This document shows, piece after piece, positions 11,038 through 44,318 of a stretch of 55,335 nt of DNA. Positions within the stretch are counted from its first letter, which is position 1; each line of letters begins with the position of its first letter. The position numbers and the translations under genes are program-made. The notes below the pieces were generated by a model. That model had not been told where the DNA came from and did no database searches. It worked only from the letters and a program-made list of their open reading frames with translations. Origin of the DNA: Prevotella sp. (GTDB taxonomy: Bacteria > Bacteroidota > Bacteroidia > Bacteroidales > Bacteroidaceae); NCBI GenBank assembly GCA_017410365.1, contig JAFQQY010000030.1:1-55335 (forward strand). The letters are read 5' to 3'.

Positions 11038-14001
11038 TCAATTCTCAATCAACTCTCTCATCCAAACTCCCCTCTCATTATGGAGAGGGGTTGGGGGTGA
11101 GGCCTCTTCAATTCTCCTACATGCTTCCCTTATCATATCAAGTGTTCCGCTTCCGTCGGAAACATACTTTACCACCATCTCGGCATATTTGAGTGCCTCT
11201 CCCAATACCTCATTCCTAACTCCTAACTCTTTTGCTTTCTCCATCAGTTCGAGCAGCGGCTGCAGGTCTTCAAGTTCCGCCAGATTGCCAGGGCGCATTG
11301 TGTTGAGAATGACATTCAGATTACCAGCATCTGCTGCAGAACCTTCATTCTTAATACGATTCAGTTCTTTCACCATGCGGGCATAGCCATGAGGTGCCCA
11401 TGGAGCATGTTCTGGTATTTTCTTTTCCATCTTCAACCAGGTCTCCTGTTCCTTGATGCGCTCTTCGGCAAGAGCAATGCTTGTTGACGAGTTGCCAAGT
11501 TGGTTAGTTGACATGTTGCTTGTTTCTGAATAGATTTTAAGATAATGTGTAGAGTTCCTGTCAGCGGCATAATCGGGCACGAATGTCCTGCCGTTGAGTG
11601 TAAGCGTATATAGATTGCCGTGCGTGCCAGATGCTGATGTCGGCGGATTGGCGGTGATGGAGTCAAGTTGTGAGTCAACAACGGCAACGGCCTCGTCCCA
11701 TTTTTCTATGCCCTTTGTTGCCATTACCAGCGGACCGTACATCAGTGCGCCGAGCCAGGATGAGGTTATGAGGTTTTGAGGTTGTAAGGTTTTGAGGTTC
11801 TTAGAACCTTGTAGCGAAGCGACCTTAGAACCTTGCAGCGCAGCGACCTCAAACTTATCCGGCCCATAGTGAATATGCTTTGTGAAAGGCATGGTTATTT
11901 CAATCATGTCGCCTTTCTTCCATTTCCTCTCCGCTATCTCCACATATTCTGAAGTGCGGTTGCTGTGACTTATCGTCTTGCCATTGAGTCTCACCTCAAA
12001 CCTGTCAGTTGCCCAGTAAGGTTTGCGCAGTTTCATGGCAAAGCGTTTTCCGCCTTTGATAATCCTTATTGTCGATTTCTCTGCCGGCCACTTGCATTCC
12101 TGTTCTATGACCACACTCTTGTCGCACCATGTTGCTGTGGTTGGCATATAAAGCGCAACCCAAAGTGTCTTGTCGGAAACGAAATATGCTGCCTCCTGAT
12201 ATTTCACGTGATTCTCCGAACCCGTACCTCCGCAGCACGACTCCTGAGGAGTGCGGTTGCCCCATGGTTTGGAAGCGTTCAGGCCAACGGCGTAATGGTA
12301 TGTCGTGAGATAATGCTCTGGATGCAGCGAACCGATAATCTGATTGTAGAGTACGCGCTCATAGTAGTCCATCAGCATGGCATTGTCTGGGTCGAAGCAG
12401 TTGAGGTCTTTCGTCAGCTTCGCCAGATTATACGCACAACAGGTCTCATTGAGCGTGGGGTTAGGAACTGGTCGCCCCTCATGGTCGGTAGCCATGTTGT
12501 TGTTCATGCTCAGCATCTGTGTGTAAGGTTGGCGGAACATCTCGCCGTTGCCTACACCGCCGGTAGCGTAGGCATAACGTCCCTGAACGAGTTGCCAGAA
12601 GTTGAGCGAAAGATTATAGTAATAGTCCTTGCCGTTGCCCCGATAACTGCGCAGCGCACTCGTTATCTTCGGAATGTGTTGGTTGGCGTGGCGCGTGCGG
12701 ATATCGTCGATGTTGCGCGACAGAGGGTCGAAGAATGCAGGACTATCGAAAAACGATGCCGCCTCAAGCAGTCGGTTGCTCTCTTTCTTATCTTCAACCA
12801 TCTCCGACAAACGACTCAACGATTCGCCCATGCCGCCATCCTCGCCGGCGATGTACATGTTCCACATCTCATAGCGGTTGCCTGGTCGCTCGCGCCTCTC
12901 CTCACGTGTGCCGTCAGTCTTCATGAACGTGCGATGATGCAGACGGTTCCACACCCACAATCCCATGTCCTTGGCTATGAGCAATGCCTTGTTGGCAATA
13001 TCCTTGTCGTCAACGTATGTGGCAATATCGATGAGACCAGCCAACTGCTTGTGAATGGCATAATAAGGTGCCCACACCCAGTCGCTGTTGTTGTAAGGAC
13101 GGTACATCTCTATCAGTACGGCATGGTGGGCGGGAATGGCGCCGAGATAACCATAGCCATAGCGGGCATAGTCTTTCTTATGCTCGTTGAATGCCGCCCA
13201 TGTGCCTTTCATGTTGCGCAATTCGTGCTCAGGAGCGAAGTCGCGTGCTTCCCAATAGCGTCCTAACGAATCGTTCCAAACAAACGTGCGTTCCTGACAT
13301 TGGCGCAGTTCGCTTACCATTCGTCGCATTCGTGAACGCAGCGAATCCTTCATGGCAGCATCTGTTGTACTGGCAAAGGCAAATGCCAGTGCCGACATGT
13401 AGTGGCCAGAGCCATGCCCTTTGAGTTTGGTTGTGGGCGAGTCCCAACCGTCGGATTGTCTGTATCCTTCTGTCGGCATACCGTAAGTGTCGCGGTAGTT
13501 ATAGAGTTGCTGACTCACGTCCCAACTCAGAATGGTTCTTATGGCAAGGTCGCGGTTGGAAGTAAGACGGTTGTCACCGTTTATTCTGACGCAGTTCAAC
13601 GGCAAAGGCTCTGCCACAGGTCTGCTGCCTGGCGTTTGGCTGTACTTATCAGTCACCTCGATGAAAGCTTTTACCGGCAAACCGTTTGCTGTGGTGTTGT
13701 CGCCTATGACATATCCGTCAATAGCATATCTGCTGCCGGCAGGATATTTCTTGGCATCAGCCAGTTCCTGCTCGGTGCTTAGTGCGGCATTCTCCCATCT
13801 CACCTGCCGATAACCGCCATTGCCGCTGCTATAAGTGACCCATAAAAGATGAGGCAGTCGTGGCACGGTGCCAACCTGAGTCATGACACGCAATGTGTCT
13901 ATCTTGTTGACAGTCCTTTCATTATTGCCGTTGTTTGCTTCCACTTTGCAGAAAGAAACAGCAAACAATAAAAAGCATATAAGCTTTATTATATTAGGCA
14001 T
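11038..14001 (-). CDS. GH127/GH146-type beta-L-arabinofuranosidase (DUF1680)
   Basis: A 987-residue secreted enzyme expected to remove beta-L-arabinofuranose from arabinan or glycoprotein side chains with a zinc-bound cysteine as nucleophile. After the signal peptide (LLFAVSFCKVEA) the (alpha/alpha)6 barrel holds NETCCAYN, giving Glu519 and Cys521, and ESCCGGTGSENH, giving Cys589 and Cys590. These four match the Zn ligands of characterised GH127 enzymes, where the first Cys of the pair is the nucleophile. Two oddities: residues about 719-747 are encoded by simple repeats (VAALQGSKVASLQGSK), and the last 20 or so residues are read from a palindromic intergenic-type repeat. The natural C-terminus was probably earlier. 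Confidence 0.85.
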   Translation of the reverse strand: MPNIIKLICFLLFAVSFCKVEANNGNNERTVNKIDTLRVMTQVGTVPRLPHLLWVTYSSGNGGYRQVRWENAALSTEQELADAKKYPAGSRYAIDGYVIGDNTTANGLPVKAFIEVTDKYSQTPGSRPVAEPLPLNCVRINGDNRLTSNRDLAIRTILSWDVSQQLYNYRDTYGMPTEGYRQSDGWDSPTTKLKGHGSGHYMSALAFAFASTTDAAMKDSLRSRMRRMVSELRQCQERTFVWNDSLGRYWEARDFAPEHELRNMKGTWAAFNEHKKDYARYGYGYLGAIPAHHAVLIEMYRPYNNSDWVWAPYYAIHKQLAGLIDIATYVDDKDIANKALLIAKDMGLWVWNRLHHRTFMKTDGTREERRERPGNRYEMWNMYIAGEDGGMGESLSRLSEMVEDKKESNRLLEAASFFDSPAFFDPLSRNIDDIRTRHANQHIPKITSALRSYRGNGKDYYYNLSLNFWQLVQGRYAYATGGVGNGEMFRQPYTQMLSMNNNMATDHEGRPVPNPTLNETCCAYNLAKLTKDLNCFDPDNAMLMDYYERVLYNQIIGSLHPEHYLTTYHYAVGLNASKPWGNRTPQESCCGGTGSENHVKYQEAAYFVSDKTLWVALYMPTTATWCDKSVVIEQECKWPAEKSTIRIIKGGKRFAMKLRKPYWATDRFEVRLNGKTISHSNRTSEYVEIAERKWKKGDMIEITMPFTKHIHYGPDKFEVAALQGSKVASLQGSKNLKTLQPQNLITSSWLGALMYGPLVMATKGIEKWDEAVAVVDSQLDSITANPPTSASGTHGNLYTLTLNGRTFVPDYAADRNSTHYLKIYSETSNMSTNQLGNSSTSIALAEERIKEQETWLKMEKKIPEHAPWAPHGYARMVKELNRIKNEGSAADAGNLNVILNTMRPGNLAELEDLQPLLELMEKAKELGVRNEVLGEALKYAEMVVKYVSDGSGTLDMIREACRRIEEASPPTPLHNERGVWMRELIEN
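11066..11112 (-). repeat. palindromic repeat forming the C-terminus of the GH127-like gene
   Basis: All 47 bases equal the reverse complement of 1384-1430. The hairpin arms are CCCCTCTC (11069-11076) and GAGAGGGG (11083-11090). It is translated as EEASPPTPLHNERGVW near the end of the enzyme. Confidence 0.85.
11762..11848 (-). repeat. in-frame simple repeats inside the GH127-like gene
   Basis: Two 24-bp units, each starting TTAGAACCTTG and ending GCGACC (11801-11824 and 11825-11848), differ at two positions. They abut a run of 'gaggtttt' words (11762-11800). The total is 29 codons, so the frame is kept; the 24-bp units give the repeated octapeptides VAALQGSK and VASLQGSK. The segment is absent from the family pattern as I know it. 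Confidence 0.75.
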
Positions 14002-14125
14002 AATTGTTAATAGTTAGTAATCATTATTATATTCAGATGCAAAAATACAAATTTAATTTCATTATCTTGTTCATTGCATCATAAATTATTTCCTATTGTT
14101 ATTCTTAGCACGTCATTCTAAATCG

Positions 14126-14186
14126 GTATACTGCCTGTATACTTTTGGTATACACGGCGTATACCGATGGTATATAGGCAGTATAC
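14126..14186. promoter_or_regulatory. six GTATAC motifs at exact 11-bp spacing
   Basis: GTATAC begins at 14126, 14137, 14148, 14159 and 14181, with GTATAT at 14170, always 11 bases apart with 5-base spacers. The outer motifs also form an 18-bp inverted repeat (14125-14142 with 14170-14187, one mismatch) enclosing a perfect 7-bp hairpin (GGTATAC at 14147, GTATACC at 14159). One turn of helix per motif puts all sites on one face, as expected for cooperative protein binding. It lies 130 bases upstream of the next + promoter and 125 bases upstream of the GH127-like start on -. Confidence 0.7.
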
Positions 14187-14220
14187 CAAATTTGAATGTG
14201 CTGAAAAATCTCCGTTGAAG

Positions 14221-14271
14221 CTTTGTTCTTTTGTACACATTTTACAAAAACTTTGATCTTTTGTATCATTT
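14221..14271 (+). promoter_or_regulatory. tandem direct repeat upstream of the lipoprotein promoter
   Basis: CTTTGTTCTTTTGTACACAT at 14221 and CTTTGATCTTTTGTATCAT at 14251 are nearly the same, 30 bases apart (about three helix turns). They sit 45-95 bases before the -33 box and could be activator sites. A reading frame that starts here is not likely to be translated, because it lies upstream of the promoter. Confidence 0.45.
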
Positions 14272-14315
14272 ATTTGCATAAATATATACTTAAATCACAT
14301 TTCTTATATATAATG

Positions 14316-14347
14316 TTTGCGTGTTATATAAAATATAACTACCTTTG
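14316..14347 (+). promoter_or_regulatory. promoter of the FimA-like lipoprotein operon
   Basis: The -33 element TTTG is at 14316-14319 and the -7 element TACCTTTG at 14340-14347, 20 bases apart. The 5' leader before the ATG at 14400 would be about 45-50 bases. This supports 14400 rather than an earlier start. Confidence 0.75.
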
Positions 14348-14399
14348 TTGCAACAAACTTGTAACTAATCGAAATAATTTACAAATTAAGATAATTGCC

Positions 14400-15791
14400 A
14401 TGCTTAAAATATTATTCCGGCTATCTTTCGTTTTGTCAGCATTGCTATTAGTGGCTTGTTCAGGCAACGACAACGAAACAGACATGCACTACCCCATCGG
14501 CACTCCAGTTGAGGTGCAACTTAGATTATCTCCTGTTGGCAGCTATAATGCAACAAGGGCGGAAGACGCAAATGCAAAGGATGAGGAAATGATGAACAGC
14601 TGGGTTGTCATAGTTGTGAACAATCAGAATCAGATAGAAAAAATTGAATCAGGTTCCATCAGCAATCTTGAACAGGTTGGTATTGCCGACGTGATACTTA
14701 CCGTTGGAGAAAAGACCGTATATTCTTTTGCAAATATTTCTCTTACCAAATTGGCTACTGCACTCAATGTTCAATCTTTATCAGAAGGAAACGTATTGAC
14801 ACTCGACAATATGAAAGCCGCATTGTTTAGTCCTAACGGCAACAATTGGAATGGCACTAACGGCATACCCATGAGCAATTGGCAGACAATTACAGTTACT
14901 GGACCCAAAGAGACGCACGACCTCTTTGTATGCCGCATGATAGCCAAACTTGAGTTTCAGATTAAAAACATCACTGGCAAGGAAATAATAAAGATAAAGA
15001 ATATATCTATCAGCGATATTACGCCCAATGGAACAGCAACCAAACTCATGCCTGCTTCTACTGTAACTAGCGATGAGGCGAGCGAGATGCAACCAAATTT
15101 GCCTGAGCGTGTTAACATAGACAATCCTACGGTTGGAAATAATAATCAGTCAACAACCGTAAATGTGCTTAATGGTACAGAAGAAATAACAATAGCCAAC
15201 GACGAAACCAAGAATGCCACAGTTTATCTGAACGAAAGCAAGATAGACCCAACATCAAGATATGGTTTGTTCATGATTACGCTAACCATCGACAAGGATG
15301 GTGCAAATGAGGAAGTGAGATATGCACTCGTTTCCAATGATAACGAGAAATGGACATACATAGCCCGCAATGATTATCGTATTATCCCGATAGTGCTCGA
15401 CGACTACAAGCTAGACATTATCCCTATCGACTACCCACCGATAGGCGTCTATCCTGCATCTGTGAAAGAAGAGGATGGCACATTTACTTGCACATCTCAT
15501 GCTGCAGGCGAGTTCAGCTTGCAACCAGTGGTAACGAGATACAGCACCGGCGAGCAGTTGCCATACGGCGCTACCGAAAACACTTGGAGCTATGTGGATA
15601 AGAGTTGGACAATAAGCAATCCTAATAGCATTTATAAGACAGCGCCCGCATGGAATGCCACCGACCATTATTTCGAGGGCAGTTTCAATAATTACACTGG
15701 CGAGGCTTACCATGAGTTCAGCGTATTAGTAAACAAGGGCAACAGCGCCCAGCAGACATTAACCTACCGATTGTGGGTAATAAGGAAATAA
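14400..15791 (+). CDS. FimA/Mfa-family-like surface lipoprotein
   Basis: A 463-residue lipoprotein. The start at 14400 gives a classic lipoprotein signal, with the lipobox LLVAC and Cys20 as acylation site. Residues about 35-390 have the pattern of Bacteroidales fimbrillin/anchor proteins (FimA, Mfa1, Mfa2 families): a VEVQLRLSP first strand, a two-lobe beta-rich fold and a TRAED segment near where fimbrillins are processed. The last 75 residues look like a separate beta domain. It lies 34 bases upstream of the giant secreted protein and shares its promoter, so the two probably work together at the surface, with this protein as an anchor or assembly partner. The family assignment rests on sequence pattern only. 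Confidence 0.6.
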   Translation: MLKILFRLSFVLSALLLVACSGNDNETDMHYPIGTPVEVQLRLSPVGSYNATRAEDANAKDEEMMNSWVVIVVNNQNQIEKIESGSISNLEQVGIADVILTVGEKTVYSFANISLTKLATALNVQSLSEGNVLTLDNMKAALFSPNGNNWNGTNGIPMSNWQTITVTGPKETHDLFVCRMIAKLEFQIKNITGKEIIKIKNISISDITPNGTATKLMPASTVTSDEASEMQPNLPERVNIDNPTVGNNNQSTTVNVLNGTEEITIANDETKNATVYLNESKIDPTSRYGLFMITLTIDKDGANEEVRYALVSNDNEKWTYIARNDYRIIPIVLDDYKLDIIPIDYPPIGVYPASVKEEDGTFTCTSHAAGEFSLQPVVTRYSTGEQLPYGATENTWSYVDKSWTISNPNSIYKTAPAWNATDHYFEGSFNNYTGEAYHEFSVLVNKGNSAQQTLTYRLWVIRK

Positions 15792-15825
15792 AAACTATCT
15801 TAATTGACCAAAACAGAAATTCATC

Positions 15826-18800
15826 ATGCAGAAAAAGATATTATCATTAGTTGTTATATTCATTTGTTCTACCTTTGCGTTATTGGCGCAGACGATAACA
15901 GACGGAGGATATTATTATCTACGCAACAGAGATACGGGAAAATTTCTGACTGGAGGAAATAACTGGGGAACTAACCTATGCCTGCATGAAACAGGTATTG
16001 ACTTTAGAGTTAATAAAACCGATAATGGATATACGTTTTATTCTGGAGTAGGAATAACTAAGAATAATGAAGAAAGGTATTATCTTAGTTCATCCGGTTG
16101 TATTGATGCTGCTAACGGCCAATCAGGTCATTATATATTTTTTGATATAACCAACATAGACAATAAATACTTCACCATCAAAGATAATAGCGACGATAGC
16201 AAGGGATATCTTTATGCAACAGGAAAACAAGGGCAGGAGGAAGTAGGATTTGAGGATACAGATGAAATCAAAGAATCACACCAATGGGAATTCTTAACAA
16301 AAGCAGATTTAATAGAAGAGCTTCAAGGCGCAACAACAGCAAAACCTATGAATGCCACGTTCTTTATTTCTGGATTCAATTTTAATAGATATGACAATCG
16401 TAATGATGAAAATTGGATTGGTACAAAAACTATTACAGGAGGAACTCAAATAGGAACAGCAAAATTCTGGTGCGCAAGATTAGACGGCAATGGAGATGTA
16501 TATCAAGAGCTTGAAGATTTACCTACTGGATATTATGAGTTGACGGCTTATGCCTGCTCTAACGGTGGTAATGCCAAAATATATGCAGGGAATACAGAAA
16601 AGGCTATCACAAATGTAGGAACAAACATACCTGATGACAATACCGCTGCTGCCCAAGCATTTGCAGATGGGAACTACAAAACAGAAACGATTGTTGTTCT
16701 AGTTACTAATGGCACTCTGAAAATCGGCGTAAAGAACACTGATGGTGCAGATACTGATAAAACATATTTTGACAACTTCAATCTTAAATATCATGGCAAC
16801 AGAGATACATACGACTATTATCTCCGCAATGTTGCCACTGGGAAATTCTTGCGTGCCGGCAAAAGATTTGGAACACAAGCCATACAGGATGACTGGGGAC
16901 TGAATTTGACTTTTAAAATGAATGCCGATGGCAAATACTCTATTAACACTCGAGTTGGAACTAGCGGCAATTATTTGGGAAGTAATGGGTTTGTTGACGG
17001 TGGGGAAACTTTCTATGAGATGACCGAGGTCTCTGCAAATAAATATACAATCAAAATCGTCAATGGCAATTATCTAACAACTAACACAGAAAACGATGTA
17101 ATTAGCTTTACAGGCACAGTTAATACAGATACAAAAGCACAATGGGAGCTTGTTACACGCGAGCAATTGATTCAGGAGTTAAAGTACTCTAAAGCATCGG
17201 ACACAAACCCTAAAGATGCGACATTCTTTATACAATCGCCAAACCTTGGACAGAAAGACCAAAGAAACAACAACGACAACTGGAAAGGAATAGATTTCGG
17301 CAGTTCTGAATATGGCGGATTGATAGAACAAGGCAATGATAAATTAACGAATCTTGTAATTCAAAAATTAAACAATAACTTCGATACCTATCAGACAATT
17401 ACAGGACTGCCTTCCGGCGTTTATGAGTTGGAGGTACAGGCTTTCTACAATCAAAGTGGAGAAGACATAATACGACCGTTCGTTTATGCAAAGCTACAAG
17501 ACGGCACAGTTATTGGCCAGGCTCCTATTATGTCGAATATTGATAATGTGCAAAGCGAGGACTACACAAATTATGACAACTTGGGAGACAAAACAGAATT
17601 TAAGAGTTCTGCTGTAGATGGCGGATACGTGCCCACTACTCTTAAAGCTGCAGCGTTGGCAATACTTAACGGATATTATAAAGCAGATGCCAAGACTGGT
17701 TTCAACAAAATCCGTTTTGTCGTAACAGAAGATAATGCCACGGTTCAGATAGGTGTCAAAAAGAATAAACTGACAACAAACGACTGGACCGTATTCGATA
17801 ATTTCAAACTAACTTATCTTGGCGAACCTAAGAACGGGGAAACTCAGACAAAATATGGACTTGAGATAGGTGAATACACATACTACCTTAAAAATTATGA
17901 CAATGGCAGATATTTAAATGGAGGTAACGGAGGCAATACGGCGACACTCGGTTATTTGATGAACGAAAATTCAACATACACTGGCGATAATTATAATAAA
18001 GGCGTAAGAGAAACAGAGTTTAAGTTCAGCGTAATAGAGGATGACAAGATTTTGATCCAAACTGATTTTGGCAATAACGGATATCTTGTTAAGGATGGTA
18101 GCAATGCCAAACTTGATGGCGAAAAAGATTATTTAAGAATCAGATGGAATGAAACCAACAAAACATTTTATATAATTTGTGAAGCAAATAGCAAAGAGTA
18201 TTTTTTAAGAAATAGTGATGCCTTGGGTTTTGGAACATCAAGCGGTACAACACCCGGCAGAAACTTCCAATGGGTGTTTCAGACAAAGGAGGACCTGCTA
18301 AATGAATTTAGTGACGCTACTGCCGATAATCCTGTTGATGCGACATTCCTCCTTAGAGGAACATCTTTCCATAATTATGACAATCGCAACAGCGCATGGG
18401 ATGCTCCTAACAGCACATTAGGCGAAGAGTACCATAACGCTACAAACAAAAATAAGACTTTTAACATAAGTCAATTGTTGCAGGACGCTCCTGTTGGAGT
18501 TTATGAATTCGGTTTGCAGGGAGCATATTCAAATAGTAGTAATGCCAAGTATTATGTCTATACCGATGGCAAATTATATACAGGTGAAATAAGCAATAGT
18601 TCTAATTTGCAATCTCACAATGTCATCCGTTTCAAGAAATCGGATAATGACATTATAATTGTTGGAGCCTACAACAACACAGCAACAGAAAACGCTACAA
18701 TATATATAGATAATGTACGCCTGACATATTTAGGCACTGAAGTTAATTCTTTTACCTCTGAGACAACAATAGCAAAGGGTATCAAGCATAAGCATTCGCA

Positions 18801-21800
18801 TTATTACGATATTGCTATAATAAACAGTCATGCCACAGTTGGTACACAAACGAATAACCAGATAATAACTGTTACCGACAACCAAACGACCATGAGCGAT
18901 AGTGCTATGGTTAAACATGTAAGCGGAAGGATGGTGCAGAACACTCCTGTATATTATGAAACTATATATGCAAAAGATGGTGAAGAAATAGAATTGGTTA
19001 TACCAAGCTCTCACCCAAACAAGACATCAAGCCGCAACTTCTATTATCAGCGCTTTTATGATTATGAAACAGATGGCCTTTTTGATGAAGCGACAAAAGG
19101 CACCTTCCGATTCGACAATTTAGATAACCGCGGAAATATTCTACACTCCGATGCTACCATTAGAGACAGGATGCGCATATATGAAGGTACTAAAGATGCT
19201 CCTGCCGGCGGATGGGTGATAGGAACACGCTGGGGACAGCAGGTAATTGCAAAGTTTTATTTCACACCGAAATTCACTGGTAATAAACCTATATATATAG
19301 GTCTCGACCATAGTGAATACACAGATGTAGGTGATATGGGATTGTTTGGCGACCTGACAGAACCAACTCTTGCGCAGCGGGTGGTGTACAAAATTATGCC
19401 AGCAAGCGTAATGGCAGAAAAACTAGAAGAATGCACCGAAGAGAATTTCCTAGAAGTAAAATCTATCTCATTCCCTACCATTTGGCATGGATTGAACAAA
19501 AACGACGACCTTAATGTTGTTGCTCTCGACATGCAGATCAGAAACTATTTTACTGATGCGAATAACGTTCCTAAAGCTGCAGATTTCACAATAAGCCTTG
19601 ATGACGGGGGAACCGGAATTACACTTGCAACAACAAAATTCAGTGGCAATACTGAGCGTTTTATAAAATTCAACTACCCAGAAGGTGGAGAAGTTAAAAA
19701 TTACACAAAAACGGCATATATTAAGGTAACATCAGGAGGCAAGAACATAGCGAAATTCATTCTAGACTTTGTACCTAACACCGAGTTGCGTCCATGGGGC
19801 GACATCATAGGCAAAGAAGACATGCCACGCTCTCCAAGTTATCTGGACAAGAATGCCATACCCCAAGGTACCATAAACTTTGACAAAAGATATTACGACA
19901 ACAACAATACTCTGATTCCGCATGCTGAGACATGGCCGGTGGGCTTTGAGAGTGGTATCAATGGCGTAGAAGAAAATAGACCTGTAGCTAAGCCTGATGC
20001 CTTTAATCCTTATCCTTTGGATTTTGCTCAGACCTCATTCTCCATTCACTATCCAAATGCTAACTTCGGACAATATTCTGTGATGAAATACATGTATATA
20101 CCAGATTATACAAAAGTAAATACTTCGTTAAAAGACGTAAACCAACTATACCACGATTTCTACAAGAACAAGCAGAACAACGAGCAACAAATGGAGAGGT
20201 ATACTGGCGATGGCTACTTTATGTATATAGACGCCAGCCACTTCCCAAGTTCTGTGGCTGAGCTGACCATTAACGAGCAATTGTGTGCCAATACAACCAT
20301 TCACGTCTCTGGATGGGTTACATCTATGGATATATCCAATCATCACAGAGGAAACAAAGCGGGATATTTAATTTTAACTATCGTTGGAAAGAAAAAAGAC
20401 GGAACAGAAGAGGCTGAGGCTATCGAGTCGTTCTGCCCTGGTCCTATCCGTGCCGATGCTATGTCTTATGACGGTCACGTAAAAGTAGAAAATGGTTATA
20501 ATCAAAATATTATTGAATGGGGTACTGATTCACGCTCTATCTGGCAGCAATTTGCATTTTCTTTTGTCATTAAAGAAGAAGTTGCTAATGAATATACGTC
20601 ATACGCTTTAAAGATAGACAATTATTGTCCAGAAACCATGGGTGGCGACATGTTGCTTGACGACGTTCGTCTGTATATTCAGAAAGCAGTGCCAAACATT
20701 ATGCAAACCGCTCCTTTATGCGATGCTGCCAATATGGATAATGTAAAGATTTATACAGATTTTACCACATTAATAAATGCTGTGGGGTTAACGGAGGCTG
20801 AGAAAGAAGAAGATGCGGAAAAAACATATAAAGGATATTTGCCATCTGCATGGTATTGTTTCCTTGACAAGAAAATATATGATGCGACACTGAAAACTAC
20901 TGGAAAAACACAAGAAGATGCTTTTAATGAAGCACTGATACGTACAGGAGGTAATAATGGAGCAGGATACTATAAGTTTGATTTCAGTAGTTGTTTCATT
21001 TCAAACGATGGTTCTGAAGGTTTGATATATAATGCTCAAAAGGATGATGAATTGAAACGAATTTATTTAACTCCTGCCGCTAGTCAACTGACAGCAGGTG
21101 AGACTTCTCTTAAAAACATGGCATATTATATTAAAAGAGATGGTAACTGGCATTCAGAGATCCCTGTGTGGAATGTTGGCACTGGGAATAGTGTTCAAGT
21201 TGTTTATGGTCATAATGATGCAGGAGATCCAACAAGATATACAGATCTTGGTGGATATGAAGAATTGCGAATTTATCAAACAGAGGGTAACCGCGTGCGA
21301 TGTTTCTTCCTTGACAAGAATAATACGATTTCTAAAAACATTGCCGATGGCTACACGAATCTGATAACAAAACCTGAGGGTTGTGATTATTGGAAGGTTG
21401 ATTTGAATGCCATAAAAGCACATGACGATTTTGGGCAGGCGAAACTTATTGGTATTAAATCTGCAAACATGAATGGGGATAATGCCATAGTCTCAAATAT
21501 TACTCTTTACAAATCGTCGGCACTTGAACTTAACAAGCCTTACTATATTTTGTTCCATGCAACAAAAGAAGAGCCTGTCATTAACAATCCTGCAACATTC
21601 TTTAATATCAGTAATGAGAAATGTGCTCCTTTGGCTGAGTTTAATGTGTCTGCAGGTACTATGGTGCGATTCGATGGTACAATGAGTACTGAAGATAATG
21701 ATTTCTGTGAAAATCAGATAGCAACTATCAAAGCAGAAATGCAGGGAATAAACAATAATAGTGTTGAAGTAAAAGTAGACCTGTTCTATGACTGGTGGAA

Positions 21801-24618
21801 TGGCGATAGAACAAGCTATACAGCCAAACTCCCTGATAAGGAATATAGCGCAAAAGATGTTCGCGATATGTTCCGAAAAGAGTATCCTGACGCCACAATA
21901 TATAATGATGAGCCAGCAAAGGGAGAATTCACTGTAGACCATGCGGCAAGCCTCAAAGAACTCCTTGCGCCTAAAGGCAAATTGTATTTATATCAGGCAG
22001 CTCTCAATGTTAAGGTTGTGAACTCTGGCGATAATATGATGAATGTGGTTGTGATACCTGTTGATAATCAAATAGAATCGTATGAAGGATACTGCAACGA
22101 CCCTATGGAGATATCATTAAGGGTAAACAGCAAAGCTCCAACAGCCCTCGATGGTTTTAAGAAAGCCACTTATCCTGATTACATGCAGGAAGTGCCGCTA
22201 CGCATCGGACTGGAGCAAATAAAGGAAGTAACGGCTGATGCAAGCAACGAAAAGGCTCTGTTCATTCCGCTAAGACAGGTGGCACTATCGGGCACAGGAG
22301 GTTACTCTACAATTAGTGTTCAAAAGAAATCAGACGCAGACAACTTTGCCGCCGTATATCTGGCAGAAACAAACGACCCCGAGATGATTTCTTACAACAA
22401 GGTAAACGACAATCTGGAGATGAGATTTGTGGGCAAGATGCATACAATAGTTAAATCGGCAGAAGACAAAAATTATGAAGACTATGTGCAACTGACATTC
22501 AACTCCGACTTCAAGCCAAAGGAGGGATACAGATATACGCTGAAGACATCGTTCATTGAACAGGATGCAAGCAGTAATACAAATACCTGTAATGGCGACT
22601 TGCTGATACCTATGTATATAGTACCGGAATATCAGGTATGGACTGGAGGTGCCGGCAATAATGACTGGACCAACGACAGGAACTGGCGCCGTGCGGACAA
22701 CAGCGAACTGAACAATGGTGAAACGAAATATACTGATGCAGGACGACTGACCAACGAGCAGAACACAACAAGCAACGGACTTGTGCCGATGAACTTCACA
22801 AATGTGTTGATGCAGACAGCCGACGGTACCGGAAATACGTATAGTAGCCTTAGCGCAATAGAAGCAAAGAGTGATGGCATATTAGATCTGACAAGCAGCA
22901 TTACGCATACTACAGACATTGAGTATCATCTAGCAGCAGACAGACAGGAACCAACTGTAACGGGATGGTCTCCTAATGATAATCAGGTTTACTGCGTGCC
23001 TTTCTATACCAACACCTGCGACGAGATAAACTTCGCGCCAAGCAGTCAGATGCTGAACACGCATCTGTTGAATTACAATAAGGCATGGGTGGAGTATGCG
23101 TTGGAATCCAAAAGATGGTATGCACTGTCATCGCCACTGCAGGGAGTGGTTTCGGGCGATATGTACCTGCCACGAAATACAGCCAAGCAGAACACGGCTT
23201 ATTTCTACGATATAAATTATGACAACACGAATTATAGCCGACTGAAGCCAGCCGTTTATCAACAGGCATGGGATAAGGCTGAAGCTACGATATACAGATT
23301 AGAGCGCGACCAATTGATTAACAAGACTCCTCCTGGGCTTGAAAGCGAAACGGCTACAGCCAATGTGGCACGCGTATTCAACTGGAGCAAGGAGTATAAC
23401 GATGTGAAGGTGCCGTTTGGTATCAACGGATTCTCTGTACGTGTGGATGTCACAGATATTGATGGTTACAACAAAGAAGAAGGGAAAAGAGATGTGCTGC
23501 TCAGATTGCCAAAGGCTGATAATACATATAATTATTATATGGGCGACGACGAAACGAACGGGTCAAAGACTGCCGACCTGACCACATTGAGGAACAACGC
23601 CGGCAAGTTGTTCACCGATAATATTGGTACAGATGGAAGCATGACCGTCACGCTTACGAACAACAGCAATGATAACGAATATTATCTCGTGGGCAATCCG
23701 TTTATGAGCGCACTTGACCTCGACAAGTTCTTCGACAAAGACTACAACCCATCGCTCGACGGAACATATTGGATTCTGACAAGCAGCAGCTATACAACGG
23801 GTGTAAAGGATGAAACTCAAAACTGGTTGAGTACAGATGTAGCGTCAACAGGCGATATAGCTCCGCTTCAGGCATTCTTCGTAAGAAAGACAGACGATAA
23901 AGGTGGAGAACTTAAGGTTATATTCACTAAGGATATGGCTGTAGCGGCAACTGGCGATGTTCTGATGACGAGAAGCACAGCAAGCCACACACCAACACTG
24001 CGAATAACGGCAATGCGAAACGGCATGACAAGCAGCGCACTCGTGGCATGCAGGGACAACGCCAATAGCGGTTTCAAGCATGGCGAGGATGCCGAGGCTC
24101 TGTTTGATTCGCATTTGGCAGATGCACCAACAGTATTCACAATGTCAGGTGACAAGGCTGCTGCCATTAATGTAAGGAAATCGCTGAACGGAGTGCCGCT
24201 GGGCATTGAGAGCAATGACGATAGTGCCGTAAGCCTGACATTCAACGGCGTAGAGAATTTCAGCGAAGAATTGTATTTATATGACTTGCTCGAAGACAAA
24301 TCAACACCTATCATCAGTTCTGGAAGTACGGTTAGCATTAGCGGAAAAAACGTAGGACGCTACTATCTCGTAACATCAGACCTGAGCGGTGGCAGCATTG
24401 CCACTACGCCAGTCATCAGTATCGACGGAAAGAGCGTGAGCATTGTTTCTCCAGCAGAAGACATGACAAGCATAACCGTTAACGATGTGGCAGGAAGAAG
24501 AGTATACAGCGATGTGAATGTAGGCAACAGCACCGAGTTTGAACTTCACCAAGGTATATATATAATTAATGTAGAAACGGCAAAGCAACAGGTTAAGGAA
24601 AAGATACTGATAAAATGA
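15826..24618 (+). CDS. giant (2930 aa) multidomain secreted protein with T9SS-like tail
   Basis: Signal peptide ends near FALLAQ. The first 970 residues are three copies of one unit: a ricin-like beta-trefoil start (YYYLRNRDTGKFLTGG at 28, YYLRNVATGKFLRAG near 331, YYLKNYDNGRYLNGG near 686) followed by a jelly-roll-like domain opening with DATFFI or NATFFISG and closing with DNFNLKYHG, NFKLTYLGE or DNVRLTYLG. The rest is beta-rich, with a further binding-type domain near 1465-1635 and WTGGAGNNDWTNDRNW near 2270. The last 80 residues (ITVNDVAGRRVYSD ... GIYIINVE) match T9SS type A sorting domains. Likely a surface adhesin or glycan-binding protein; no catalytic motif is recognised. More AT-rich than the carbohydrate genes to its left. 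Confidence 0.7.
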   Translation: MQKKILSLVVIFICSTFALLAQTITDGGYYYLRNRDTGKFLTGGNNWGTNLCLHETGIDFRVNKTDNGYTFYSGVGITKNNEERYYLSSSGCIDAANGQSGHYIFFDITNIDNKYFTIKDNSDDSKGYLYATGKQGQEEVGFEDTDEIKESHQWEFLTKADLIEELQGATTAKPMNATFFISGFNFNRYDNRNDENWIGTKTITGGTQIGTAKFWCARLDGNGDVYQELEDLPTGYYELTAYACSNGGNAKIYAGNTEKAITNVGTNIPDDNTAAAQAFADGNYKTETIVVLVTNGTLKIGVKNTDGADTDKTYFDNFNLKYHGNRDTYDYYLRNVATGKFLRAGKRFGTQAIQDDWGLNLTFKMNADGKYSINTRVGTSGNYLGSNGFVDGGETFYEMTEVSANKYTIKIVNGNYLTTNTENDVISFTGTVNTDTKAQWELVTREQLIQELKYSKASDTNPKDATFFIQSPNLGQKDQRNNNDNWKGIDFGSSEYGGLIEQGNDKLTNLVIQKLNNNFDTYQTITGLPSGVYELEVQAFYNQSGEDIIRPFVYAKLQDGTVIGQAPIMSNIDNVQSEDYTNYDNLGDKTEFKSSAVDGGYVPTTLKAAALAILNGYYKADAKTGFNKIRFVVTEDNATVQIGVKKNKLTTNDWTVFDNFKLTYLGEPKNGETQTKYGLEIGEYTYYLKNYDNGRYLNGGNGGNTATLGYLMNENSTYTGDNYNKGVRETEFKFSVIEDDKILIQTDFGNNGYLVKDGSNAKLDGEKDYLRIRWNETNKTFYIICEANSKEYFLRNSDALGFGTSSGTTPGRNFQWVFQTKEDLLNEFSDATADNPVDATFLLRGTSFHNYDNRNSAWDAPNSTLGEEYHNATNKNKTFNISQLLQDAPVGVYEFGLQGAYSNSSNAKYYVYTDGKLYTGEISNSSNLQSHNVIRFKKSDNDIIIVGAYNNTATENATIYIDNVRLTYLGTEVNSFTSETTIAKGIKHKHSHYYDIAIINSHATVGTQTNNQIITVTDNQTTMSDSAMVKHVSGRMVQNTPVYYETIYAKDGEEIELVIPSSHPNKTSSRNFYYQRFYDYETDGLFDEATKGTFRFDNLDNRGNILHSDATIRDRMRIYEGTKDAPAGGWVIGTRWGQQVIAKFYFTPKFTGNKPIYIGLDHSEYTDVGDMGLFGDLTEPTLAQRVVYKIMPASVMAEKLEECTEENFLEVKSISFPTIWHGLNKNDDLNVVALDMQIRNYFTDANNVPKAADFTISLDDGGTGITLATTKFSGNTERFIKFNYPEGGEVKNYTKTAYIKVTSGGKNIAKFILDFVPNTELRPWGDIIGKEDMPRSPSYLDKNAIPQGTINFDKRYYDNNNTLIPHAETWPVGFESGINGVEENRPVAKPDAFNPYPLDFAQTSFSIHYPNANFGQYSVMKYMYIPDYTKVNTSLKDVNQLYHDFYKNKQNNEQQMERYTGDGYFMYIDASHFPSSVAELTINEQLCANTTIHVSGWVTSMDISNHHRGNKAGYLILTIVGKKKDGTEEAEAIESFCPGPIRADAMSYDGHVKVENGYNQNIIEWGTDSRSIWQQFAFSFVIKEEVANEYTSYALKIDNYCPETMGGDMLLDDVRLYIQKAVPNIMQTAPLCDAANMDNVKIYTDFTTLINAVGLTEAEKEEDAEKTYKGYLPSAWYCFLDKKIYDATLKTTGKTQEDAFNEALIRTGGNNGAGYYKFDFSSCFISNDGSEGLIYNAQKDDELKRIYLTPAASQLTAGETSLKNMAYYIKRDGNWHSEIPVWNVGTGNSVQVVYGHNDAGDPTRYTDLGGYEELRIYQTEGNRVRCFFLDKNNTISKNIADGYTNLITKPEGCDYWKVDLNAIKAHDDFGQAKLIGIKSANMNGDNAIVSNITLYKSSALELNKPYYILFHATKEEPVINNPATFFNISNEKCAPLAEFNVSAGTMVRFDGTMSTEDNDFCENQIATIKAEMQGINNNSVEVKVDLFYDWWNGDRTSYTAKLPDKEYSAKDVRDMFRKEYPDATIYNDEPAKGEFTVDHAASLKELLAPKGKLYLYQAALNVKVVNSGDNMMNVVVIPVDNQIESYEGYCNDPMEISLRVNSKAPTALDGFKKATYPDYMQEVPLRIGLEQIKEVTADASNEKALFIPLRQVALSGTGGYSTISVQKKSDADNFAAVYLAETNDPEMISYNKVNDNLEMRFVGKMHTIVKSAEDKNYEDYVQLTFNSDFKPKEGYRYTLKTSFIEQDASSNTNTCNGDLLIPMYIVPEYQVWTGGAGNNDWTNDRNWRRADNSELNNGETKYTDAGRLTNEQNTTSNGLVPMNFTNVLMQTADGTGNTYSSLSAIEAKSDGILDLTSSITHTTDIEYHLAADRQEPTVTGWSPNDNQVYCVPFYTNTCDEINFAPSSQMLNTHLLNYNKAWVEYALESKRWYALSSPLQGVVSGDMYLPRNTAKQNTAYFYDINYDNTNYSRLKPAVYQQAWDKAEATIYRLERDQLINKTPPGLESETATANVARVFNWSKEYNDVKVPFGINGFSVRVDVTDIDGYNKEEGKRDVLLRLPKADNTYNYYMGDDETNGSKTADLTTLRNNAGKLFTDNIGTDGSMTVTLTNNSNDNEYYLVGNPFMSALDLDKFFDKDYNPSLDGTYWILTSSSYTTGVKDETQNWLSTDVASTGDIAPLQAFFVRKTDDKGGELKVIFTKDMAVAATGDVLMTRSTASHTPTLRITAMRNGMTSSALVACRDNANSGFKHGEDAEALFDSHLADAPTVFTMSGDKAAAINVRKSLNGVPLGIESNDDSAVSLTFNGVENFSEELYLYDLLEDKSTPIISSGSTVSISGKNVGRYYLVTSDLSGGSIATTPVISIDGKSVSIVSPAEDMTSITVNDVAGRRVYSDVNVGNSTEFELHQGIYIINVETAKQQVKEKILIK

Positions 24619-39133: not shown

Positions 39134-39207
39134 TAGCGAGGGTGGGGCACGATCCCACGACCTCCGGATTATGAATCCGACGCTCTAACCAGCTGAGCTA
39201 CCTCGCC
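39134..39207 (-). tRNA. tRNA with CAU anticodon, elongator Met type
   Basis: The 74-base cloverleaf is complete: acceptor GGCGAGG with CCTCGCT (a G1-U72 wobble), D arm AGCTCAGCTGGTTAGAGC, anticodon loop TTCATAA on the stem TCGGA/TCCGG, T stem GTGGG/CCCAC, discriminator A73. The anticodon stem lacks the three G-C pairs of initiator tRNA, so it is elongator tRNA-Met or, less likely, tRNA-Ile2. CCA is not encoded (ACAT follows). The T loop reads ATCGTGC instead of TTCGANN, so positions 54 and 58 are A and T, swapped from the usual T and A. Confidence 0.93.
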
Positions 39208-43024: not shown

Positions 43025-43054
43025 TAATATTTATGCACGAGAATAAAATTCTTT

Positions 43055-43094
43055 ATTCTTCATTCTTCATTCTTCATTAAAAATATTAAATTTG
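43055..43094 (+). promoter_or_regulatory. promoter region with ATTCTTC triplication
   Basis: ATTCTTC is repeated three times in tandem (43055-43075) followed by ATT, and the -7 element TAAATTTG lies at 43087-43094. The repeat occupies the -33 position, so its copy number could change promoter spacing. Confidence 0.5.
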
Positions 43095-43124: not shown

Positions 43125-44318
43125 ATGGCAAAATTATCTAATCGTTTGCAAAGACTTGCCCCATCGGCAACTCTGGCAATGTCGCAGAAAAGTTCTGAAA
43201 TGAAAGCTCAGGGCATAGATGTTATCAACATGAGTGTTGGCGAACCGGACTTTAATACACCAGACTTGATAAAACATGCTGCGAAAAAGGCCATAGACGA
43301 AAACTACTCTACATACTCACCTGTACCAGGATATGCTGATTTAAGAAAGGCAATTGTTAAGAAGCTCAAGAACGAGAACAATCTGGAATACACCATGAAC
43401 GAAGTCCTCGTTTCAAATGGTGCCAAGCAGAGCGTCTGCAATACTGTAATGGCATTGGTTGAAGATGGCGACGAGGTGATAATCCCTACCCCATATTGGG
43501 TATCATACCCACAGATGGTATTGCTCGCAGGCGGTGTCCCTGTTTATGTTGAAGCAGGTTTCGACCAGAATTTCAAAATGACTCCAGAACAGCTTGAAGC
43601 TGCCATCACCCCAAAGACACGCCTTATCATCCTCTGTTCTCCAAGCAATCCGACTGGCAGCGTTTATTCTAAAGAAGAACTCGAAGGTCTGGCTAATGTA
43701 ATCAAGAAGCACGAAGACCTCTTTATACTTGCAGATGAGATTTACGAGCACATCAACTATATCGGCAAGCACGAAAGCATTGCCCAGTTTGAAGGCATGA
43801 AAGAACGTACCATTATCGTGAACGGCGTTTCCAAGGCCTATGCCATGACTGGTTGGAGAATCGGTTATATCGCAGCGCCTGAGTGGATTGTCAAAGGATG
43901 CAACAAACTGCAAGGACAATATACCAGCGGTCCATGCTCAGTAAGCCAGAAAGCTGCAGAGTTTGCATATACCGCCGATCAAAGTTGCGTAGAAGAAATG
44001 CGTGTTGCTTTTGAGCGCAGACGCAATCTGATAGTGGAATTGGCCAAAGACATACCAGGCCTTGAAGTCAACGTGCCGGAAGGAGCATTCTATCTTTTCC
44101 CCAAATGCAGCAGTTTCTATGGCAAGTCAGACGGTACAACAACAATCAACAACTCTACTGACCTTGCAATGTATCTGCTTGAAAAAGGTCATGTTGCAAC
44201 AGTAGGCGGCGACGCTTTTGGCGATAGCGAATGTTTCAGAATGAGCTATGCGACAAGCGACGAAAACATAATTGAAGCCATGAGACGCATAAAAAATGCA
44301 TTGTCAGAATTGAAATAA
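43125..44318 (+). CDS. pyridoxal-phosphate aminotransferase (aspartate aminotransferase type)
   Basis: A 397-residue fold-type I aminotransferase of the AspC/AAT class. The PLP lysine is Lys237 in SKAYAMTGWRIGY; SNGAKQSVCN binds the phosphate, CSPSNPTGS carries the conserved Asn, and the C-terminal MSYATSD segment carries the substrate-carboxylate position (SYA). MSVGEPDFNTP is typical of subgroup Igamma. Likely converts aspartate and oxaloacetate, though prephenate or aromatic amino acids are possible for this subgroup. It has its own promoter and terminator. Confidence 0.9.
   Translation: MAKLSNRLQRLAPSATLAMSQKSSEMKAQGIDVINMSVGEPDFNTPDLIKHAAKKAIDENYSTYSPVPGYADLRKAIVKKLKNENNLEYTMNEVLVSNGAKQSVCNTVMALVEDGDEVIIPTPYWVSYPQMVLLAGGVPVYVEAGFDQNFKMTPEQLEAAITPKTRLIILCSPSNPTGSVYSKEELEGLANVIKKHEDLFILADEIYEHINYIGKHESIAQFEGMKERTIIVNGVSKAYAMTGWRIGYIAAPEWIVKGCNKLQGQYTSGPCSVSQKAAEFAYTADQSCVEEMRVAFERRRNLIVELAKDIPGLEVNVPEGAFYLFPKCSSFYGKSDGTTTINNSTDLAMYLLEKGHVATVGGDAFGDSECFRMSYATSDENIIEAMRRIKNALSELK

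Follow-up and report, generated by a model that had tools for sequence, protein, structure and literature searches.

The array of GTATAC motifs described here is probably one copy of a new family of dispersed, non-coding intergenic palindromes of the MITE/REP type, and we put the probability of this reading at about two in three. The array lies in a Prevotella sp. genome (G000; 3.28 Mb, 55 contigs, 89% complete), and "the window" denotes the whole stretch of its DNA that was analyzed (55,335 nt). Copies have apparently spread into the intergenic DNA of G000 and, separately, of a few relatives. The length of the array is largely fixed, while its filler sequence varies.

The array in the window

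GTATAC starts at positions 14126, 14137, 14148, 14159, and 14181 and GTATAT at 14170, each step being 11 bp; all starts and steps of the six-motif register in the original prediction were thus borne out. The perfect 7-bp hairpin named there (i.e., GGTATAC-ACGGC-GTATACC at 14147-14165) is present, and the outer 18-bp inverted repeat is confirmed apart from a single mismatch. The 5-bp spacers, which had been called unrelated, are not: TGCCT is the reverse complement of AGGCA, and a small set of GC-rich 5-mers reappears across other copies (ACGGC 18 times and AGGCA 15 times among the 45 loops of G000, strands merged). Compared with its own reverse complement, the segment 14125-14187 is equal at 52 of 63 positions. 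A phased pair pattern with up to two mismatches was found six times in the window, compared with 1.58 expected in shuffled windows, and one of 100 shuffles reached six matches; five of the six are consecutive pairs of the array itself (0 or 1 mismatch each). The features are as follows.

14107..14118, unstranded: weak outer inverted-repeat arm, AGCACGTCATTC (by eye)
14125..14187, unstranded: repeat core, three 19-bp dyads at 22-bp steps, 63 bp, near-palindromic
14125..14143, unstranded: dyad unit 1, GGTATAC-TGCCT-GTATACT
14147..14165, unstranded: dyad unit 2, GGTATAC-ACGGC-GTATACC, perfect 7-bp arms, 5-nt loop
14169..14187, unstranded: dyad unit 3, GGTATAT-AGGCA-GTATACC
14188..14193, unstranded: right end flank, AAATTT (from the 15-copy alignment, by eye)
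14317..14347, + strand: match to the Bacteroidota-type promoter motif for the downstream gene, 130 bp beyond the array

The left flank of this copy is AAATC (14120-14124). The weak outer arm AGCACGTCATTC has its partner, GAATGTGCT, at 14194-14202 with a 2-nt gap (by eye). Outer arms are weak throughout G000 (8 to 14 of 25 positions match) and are clearer at some copies of G228, a relative. The genes on either side of the array are divergent; one starts 124 bp away, and the likely start of the other lies at a distance of about 210 bp. The motif TTG-N20-TAnnTTTG, which we take to be the Bacteroidota-type promoter, is matched on the downstream side (L005 1696-1726; 0.05 expected in shuffles of that locus). 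A terminator-like site was looked for at the window copy and none was found. The only Rfam match above the gathering score in the window is a tRNA (39134-39207), and the array has no match.

Three other features of the window were recorded. A 2,930-aa open reading frame (ORF) 3' of the array (15826-24618) has no Pfam match at an E value of 0.001. A 69-bp direct repeat with CCTCACCCCCAACCCCTCTCC (1.9 copies) occupies 1308-1439, and the heptamer ATTCTTC is repeated 4.4 times at 43048-43078, 47 bp ahead of an ORF at 43125, as a possible slippage site.

Copies and anatomy in three species

A search of G000 with a 71-bp stretch of the window gave 32 matches, which were merged over strands into 15 good copies, one degraded four-unit copy (on contig C29), and one fragment (C31). 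All 15 good copies carry the 63-bp core, and the surrounding DNA is otherwise mostly unrelated. By eye, ATTT closes the left flank in 11 of the 15 and AAAT opens the right flank in 14, so that most copies have ends of the inverted type (ATTT-GG...CC-AAAT). Each copy comprises three units, the unit being a 22-bp module made of a 19-bp dyad, GGTATAY-N5-RTATACC, and a further 3 bp.

All six hexamers were found in 11 of 15 arrays in G000, 14 of 19 in G228, and 14 of 15 in G251, another relative. The statistics below cover the three-unit copies (15 of 15, 17 of 19, and 12 of 15 arrays, respectively); a four-unit G228 array (L092), three G251 arrays with other unit numbers (L114, L115, and L120), and an array that had lost its third unit (L105) were left out. 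In G000, the 90 hexamer slots hold GTATAC 60 times, ATATAC 15 times, and GTATAT 11 times, and in G228 GTATAC fills 63 of 102. In G251, only eight of the 72 slots hold GTATAC, the other 64 being GTATAT or ATATAC; the dyad is therefore conserved and the palindromic hexamer is not. The conserved unit is thus a 19-bp dyad every 22 bp and not, as had been proposed, a palindromic hexamer every 11 bp.

Within species, the mean pairwise identity of the TATA cores is 0.989 (G000), 0.981 (G228), and 1.000 (G251), compared with 0.734, 0.670, and 0.746 for the spacers. The intra-dyad spacers contain on average 3.5, 3.6, and 4.2 G+C positions of 5 in these genomes, and the inter-dyad spacers 2.2, 1.2, and 2.8. 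Among the loci examined, successive hexamers are 11 bp apart 64 times in G000, 88 times in G228, 76 times in G251, and 135 times in a fourth species, HAN020, where 22-bp steps also occur 21 times with one slot degraded. The other main spacings are 9- and 13-bp steps in G000 (4 times each), read as overlapping calls at GTATATAC, and 10- and 21-bp steps in G251 (6 and 5 times), read as array edges and widened units (e.g., L112, L114, and L117). The one-turn register is thus no accident, as the original prediction had held, since it persists in four species despite varied spacers. A largely constant length combined with varying spacers supports, indirectly, the view that spacing matters. One G251 array (C21, L114 631-832) is longer and partly degraded, with widened spacers, and is perhaps an expanding minisatellite derived from the element.

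Distribution across genomes

A pattern of four phased hexamers was matched in seven of 398 congeneric genomes, including G000, with overlapping matches numbering 23 in G000, 37 in G228, 27 in G251, four in G361, two in G059, and one each in G129 and G178; a reversed control pattern was matched in none of the 398. BLAST with one 68-bp copy detected eight of the 398 congeners (two of them by weak or partial matches), and renewed searches of eight genomes found further copies in six. Of 200 genomes, 13 others had one or two matches to a two-hexamer pattern; its control also occurred in some, and single pairs are therefore treated as background.

Across 84,980 species genomes, a scan returned 91 stretches, of which 71 are from Prevotella or Prevotellaceae metagenome-assembled genomes as judged by their titles (HAN020, 30; RGIG1804, 19; RUG12065, 15; five others, 7). 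The remaining 20 (15 from other Bacteroidota and five from unrelated taxa) are largely homogeneous 11-bp tandem arrays or single matches. In viral contigs, the pattern matched nine stretches and its reversed control 24; such arrays alone are therefore background, and a virus-borne element was rejected for want of enrichment.

HAN020 (Prevotella sp.) harbors a second amplified family, in which the register is kept and the spacers and flanks are different. Its arrays have 4 to 10 slots (up to two mismatches per slot), several being cut by contig ends, and they alternate GC-rich and A-rich spacers as the other family does. A second repeat, gaggatagggctcgctattt with variants, recurs around HAN020 arrays (e.g., in the L184 and L200 flanks), and 12 of the 30 arrays are situated where a contig ends, as though assembly were broken by the repeat.

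Genomic context and occupied versus empty sites

The 16 places in G000 (15 good copies and the degraded one) are all outside long ORFs; spurious-looking ORFs of 61 to 104 aa overlap four of them, and the degraded copy begins just beyond the stop of a 148-aa ORF. Their neighboring genes are divergent at four places, tandem at eight, and convergent at four, with two assignments resting on weak ORFs. In G228, 13 of 16 loci examined have both neighbors, which are convergent at nine, tandem at four, and divergent at none.

Two gene pairs permitted comparison of occupied and empty sites. The mnmG-sdhC gap holds an array in G000, whereas no phased pair occurs there in any of the 17 congeners with both genes (29 best loci examined). 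At the ilvC gene pair, G228 has an array and G000 lacks one, the gaps being about 0.8 and 0.13 kb; this difference of about 680 bp exceeds the element, and the empty sites are too diverged to define insertion edges. No empty site was found for the window copy when 12900-15800 of the window was compared with five relatives: the matches were limited in G228 to that genome's own arrays and in G123 to the GH127 gene, and the three others gave none.

Some arrays are common to pairs of species. One orthologous array is found in two species that are about 85% identical at that place. In the one orthologous pair aligned (L182/L210), the arrays agree at 59 of 61 positions and the nearby flanks are 88 to 100% identical, a range that makes the pair uninformative about slower evolution of the array. 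G251 and G361 have one array in common within 4 kb of 99.7% identical DNA. Such common arrays speak against simple mobility, since they represent retention or joint transfer and not movement.

A conserved orthologous site beside a DUF6078 gene was considered from the flank homology of three arrays (G000 C48, G228 C108, and G251 C21) and rejected, as G228 and G251 have the same gene family with different other neighbors. The arrays there lie 7 and 23 bp past the DUF6078 stop in two species (L227 3132-3706 and L228 3508-4084), and the G000 C48 copy is bordered by a stretch 66% identical to the flanks of these arrays. In addition, the sdh region of G228 (L230, C31) is 93% identical to that of G000 (L224) over 1.9 kb, compared with 78 to 79% for ilvC and pgk, which suggests transfer or uneven divergence.

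Evidence on a probable mobile element

On the preferred reading, a copying enzyme would recognize the dyads, which would serve either as half-sites paired on the same face of double-stranded DNA or, in single-stranded DNA, as small hairpins. Recognition of this kind would explain the constancy of unit length and TATA cores alongside spacers that drift or are swapped. The window copy would simply have landed between two divergent genes, with no regulatory role needed there.

The G000 copies are short, multi-copy (15 good copies), intergenic, and non-coding, as is expected of MITEs. Larger inverted arms surround the core at some copies in the relatives: arms of the gagggtgtgtca type occur at some copies of G251, G361, and G059, and G228 has recurring left and right arms, with two arm types around its copies. 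The recurring outer arms, which include a gtgtgaagtaa... sequence beside the gagggtgtgtca type, resemble those of MITEs. One left-arm pattern searched in G228 and G000 gave eight hits, all within about 100 bp of array copies. Since the arm sequence differs between species, these outer arms do not delimit the moving unit. Visual inspection of the aligned flanks, in which the element boundaries are uncertain, revealed no target-site duplication.

We searched seven array-bearing genomes for the Y1_Tnp domain (PF01797). It is absent from G000 (89% complete), G228, and HAN020, and gave one or two hits in each of G251, G129, G361, and RUG13587; three of the four array-rich genomes thus lack it, and the fourth, G251, has one. 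That G251 locus (C14, L278 1399-1866, minus strand) is a truncated IS200-like Y1_Tnp ORF with its N-terminal end fused to a GTATAY array (1769-1829). At each of the remaining four Y1_Tnp loci, about 3.3 kb of sequence was free of phased pairs. The truncated ORF is a possible trace of a repeat-handling enzyme, which we take from this single case as a hint and not as support. Given the absence of PF01797 from G000, G228, and HAN020, a RAYT-driven REP was rejected, being unproven rather than excluded in G251. Neither the PF01797 search nor the arm pattern searched in G000 and G228 tied a transposase to the repeat.

A broader proposal, which we offer speculatively and consider rather unlikely, is a new class of phased-dyad elements, in which tandem 19-bp dyads would be locked at two helical turns and a candidate oligomeric DNA-binding protein would spread and load on the element. 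Such elements would have arisen or been remodeled at least twice in gut Prevotella (i.e., in the GG..CC family of G000, G228, and G251 and in the HAN020 family); spacers and flanks would have changed, while the 22-bp module and its alternation of GC-rich and AT-rich spacers would have persisted.

Alternative explanations

The main rival holds that the copies are multi-site platforms for a candidate dimeric, cooperative DNA-binding protein (a nucleoid-organizing protein or global regulator) and are maintained by selection; with its three dyads spaced by two helical turns, a copy would load three dimers, all on the same face. We judge this to be unlikely, although several observations are consistent with it. 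The 11- and 22-bp steps are largely fixed in four species with varied spacers, the TATA cores far exceed the spacers in identity in three species (0.98 to 1.00 versus 0.67 to 0.75), and the division into GC-rich intra-dyad and AT-richer inter-dyad spacers recurs in HAN020 with other sequences. However, the pattern is found in only seven of 398 congeners, which makes it dispensable for the genus; at neither of the two gene pairs tested is the site conserved; and some copies lie between convergent genes. A fixed length would, moreover, also be expected of recent copies.

A second explanation, which we regard as improbable, is that the repeat acts as an RNA or single-stranded DNA hairpin that ends or protects transcripts at the 3' ends of genes, possibly in both directions. 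The strand folds as one long hairpin with a predicted free energy of -43.1 kcal/mol, but any row of palindromic hexamers folds likewise, and the long hairpin may be incidental to the palindromic units. The predominance of convergent neighbors in G228 (9 of 13 copies with both neighbors seen, from 16 loci examined) would suit such a role, whereas four of the 16 G000 copies lie between divergent genes and the window copy has no terminator-like site. Spacers 1 and 5 are slightly more complementary than shuffled ones in G228 (P = 0.078), but they show no clear covariation in G000 (P = 0.954) or G251 (P = 0.686), and C-A mismatches close 30 of 132 dyads. With neither an Rfam match nor clear spacer covariation, a structured RNA was rejected as a candidate.

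It is very improbable that the arrays are decaying minisatellites, in which ordinary slippage repeats of 11 or 22 bp would contain GTATAC by chance. Tandem 11-bp GTATAC arrays that are largely homogeneous do exist in other Bacteroidota and in unrelated taxa (Solitalea, Chitinophaga, and Paraflavisolibacter), viral contigs match the pattern no more often than its reversed control (9 versus 24), and the L114 array of G251 is longer with widened units. Against this, the 15 good G000 copies all have a 63-bp core, neighboring units differ in spacer, and most copies have similar ends.

The least probable alternative, now largely refuted, is the face-specific local operator of the original prediction for the GH127 gene and/or the lipoprotein operon: the window copy does lie between divergent genes (124 and about 210 bp from their starts), but the same sequence stands beside other genes at the 14 other good sites in G000, which are unrelated and of mixed gene orientation, and the promoter-like match is 130 bp away. 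That prediction had named recurrence at many unrelated sites with variable spacing as evidence against itself; the recurrence was found (15 good copies) and the variable spacing was not. The original prediction is thus partly supported: the spacing appears constrained, while a site-specific operator is not supported.

Comparison with known repeats

We compared the repeat with known families as they are described in the accessible text of the sources cited. BrickBuilt, a MITE of Porphyromonas gingivalis with 19 copies in one strain, is likewise a multi-copy intergenic repeat of Bacteroidales that has a short tandem-repeat core and small inverted-repeat ends and lacks a transposase (PMC4596501). 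It differs in having a 23-nt unit (AGAYCATARTATCCTCTCRTRTG) that is not a dyad, a variable unit number, a length of 84 to 991 nt, and a long leader and tail (PMC4596501). Identity with BrickBuilt was rejected by eye, as the 22-bp Prevotella unit, GGTATAY-N5-RTATACC plus 3 bp, is unrelated to AGAYCATARTATCCTCTCRTRTG.

The REP families described in these sources consist of one hairpin or a pair of them, tagged at the foot (PMC3733652, PMC6006769). Like the Prevotella repeat, GTAG- and CGTC-tagged REPs and REPINs are short, dispersed palindromes of modest stem and loop size that commonly form dimers or clusters and are patchily distributed among species, and the Bacteroidetes TnpA-REP subclass 2.6 is described as flanked by "atypical secondary structures" whose copies recur in the genome (PMC3733652, PMC6006769). 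The CGTC REP has an 8- to 9-bp stem and a 4- to 5-nt loop (PMC3733652, PMC6006769), compared with the 7-bp arms and 5-nt loop here. Unlike REPs, the Prevotella repeat has three dyads at exact 22-bp steps, and three of the four array-rich genomes have no Y1_Tnp. By eye, the 15 aligned G000 copies have neither a GTAG-type tetranucleotide beside the core nor a CGTC foot; a GTAG or CGTC REP, as the available descriptions define it, is ruled out by the missing foot.

PINSR is a 188-bp repeat of the Prevotella intermedia/nigrescens group with 177 to 184 copies, reported without terminal inverted repeats (PMC4755523). It, too, is a dispersed, intergenic, non-coding, lineage-specific Prevotella repeat, and the array is set apart from it by that published description (i.e., 188 bp and no inverted ends), not by sequence (PMC4755523). 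The accessible part of a MITE review names no Prevotella element (PMC10969869). We found no description of this repeat in the literature covered by our search, to which subscription journals and preprints were mostly external.

Implications

Short dispersed palindromes shape bacterial genomes. In the family described here, a strict two-turn module is kept in different species with different filler, and searches of three of the four array-rich genomes found no REP-type transposase. The family lends itself to counts and tests of what selects for spacing over sequence. It also indicates that, where phased palindromes lie upstream of a gene, a genome-wide check for further copies is needed before they are called an operator.
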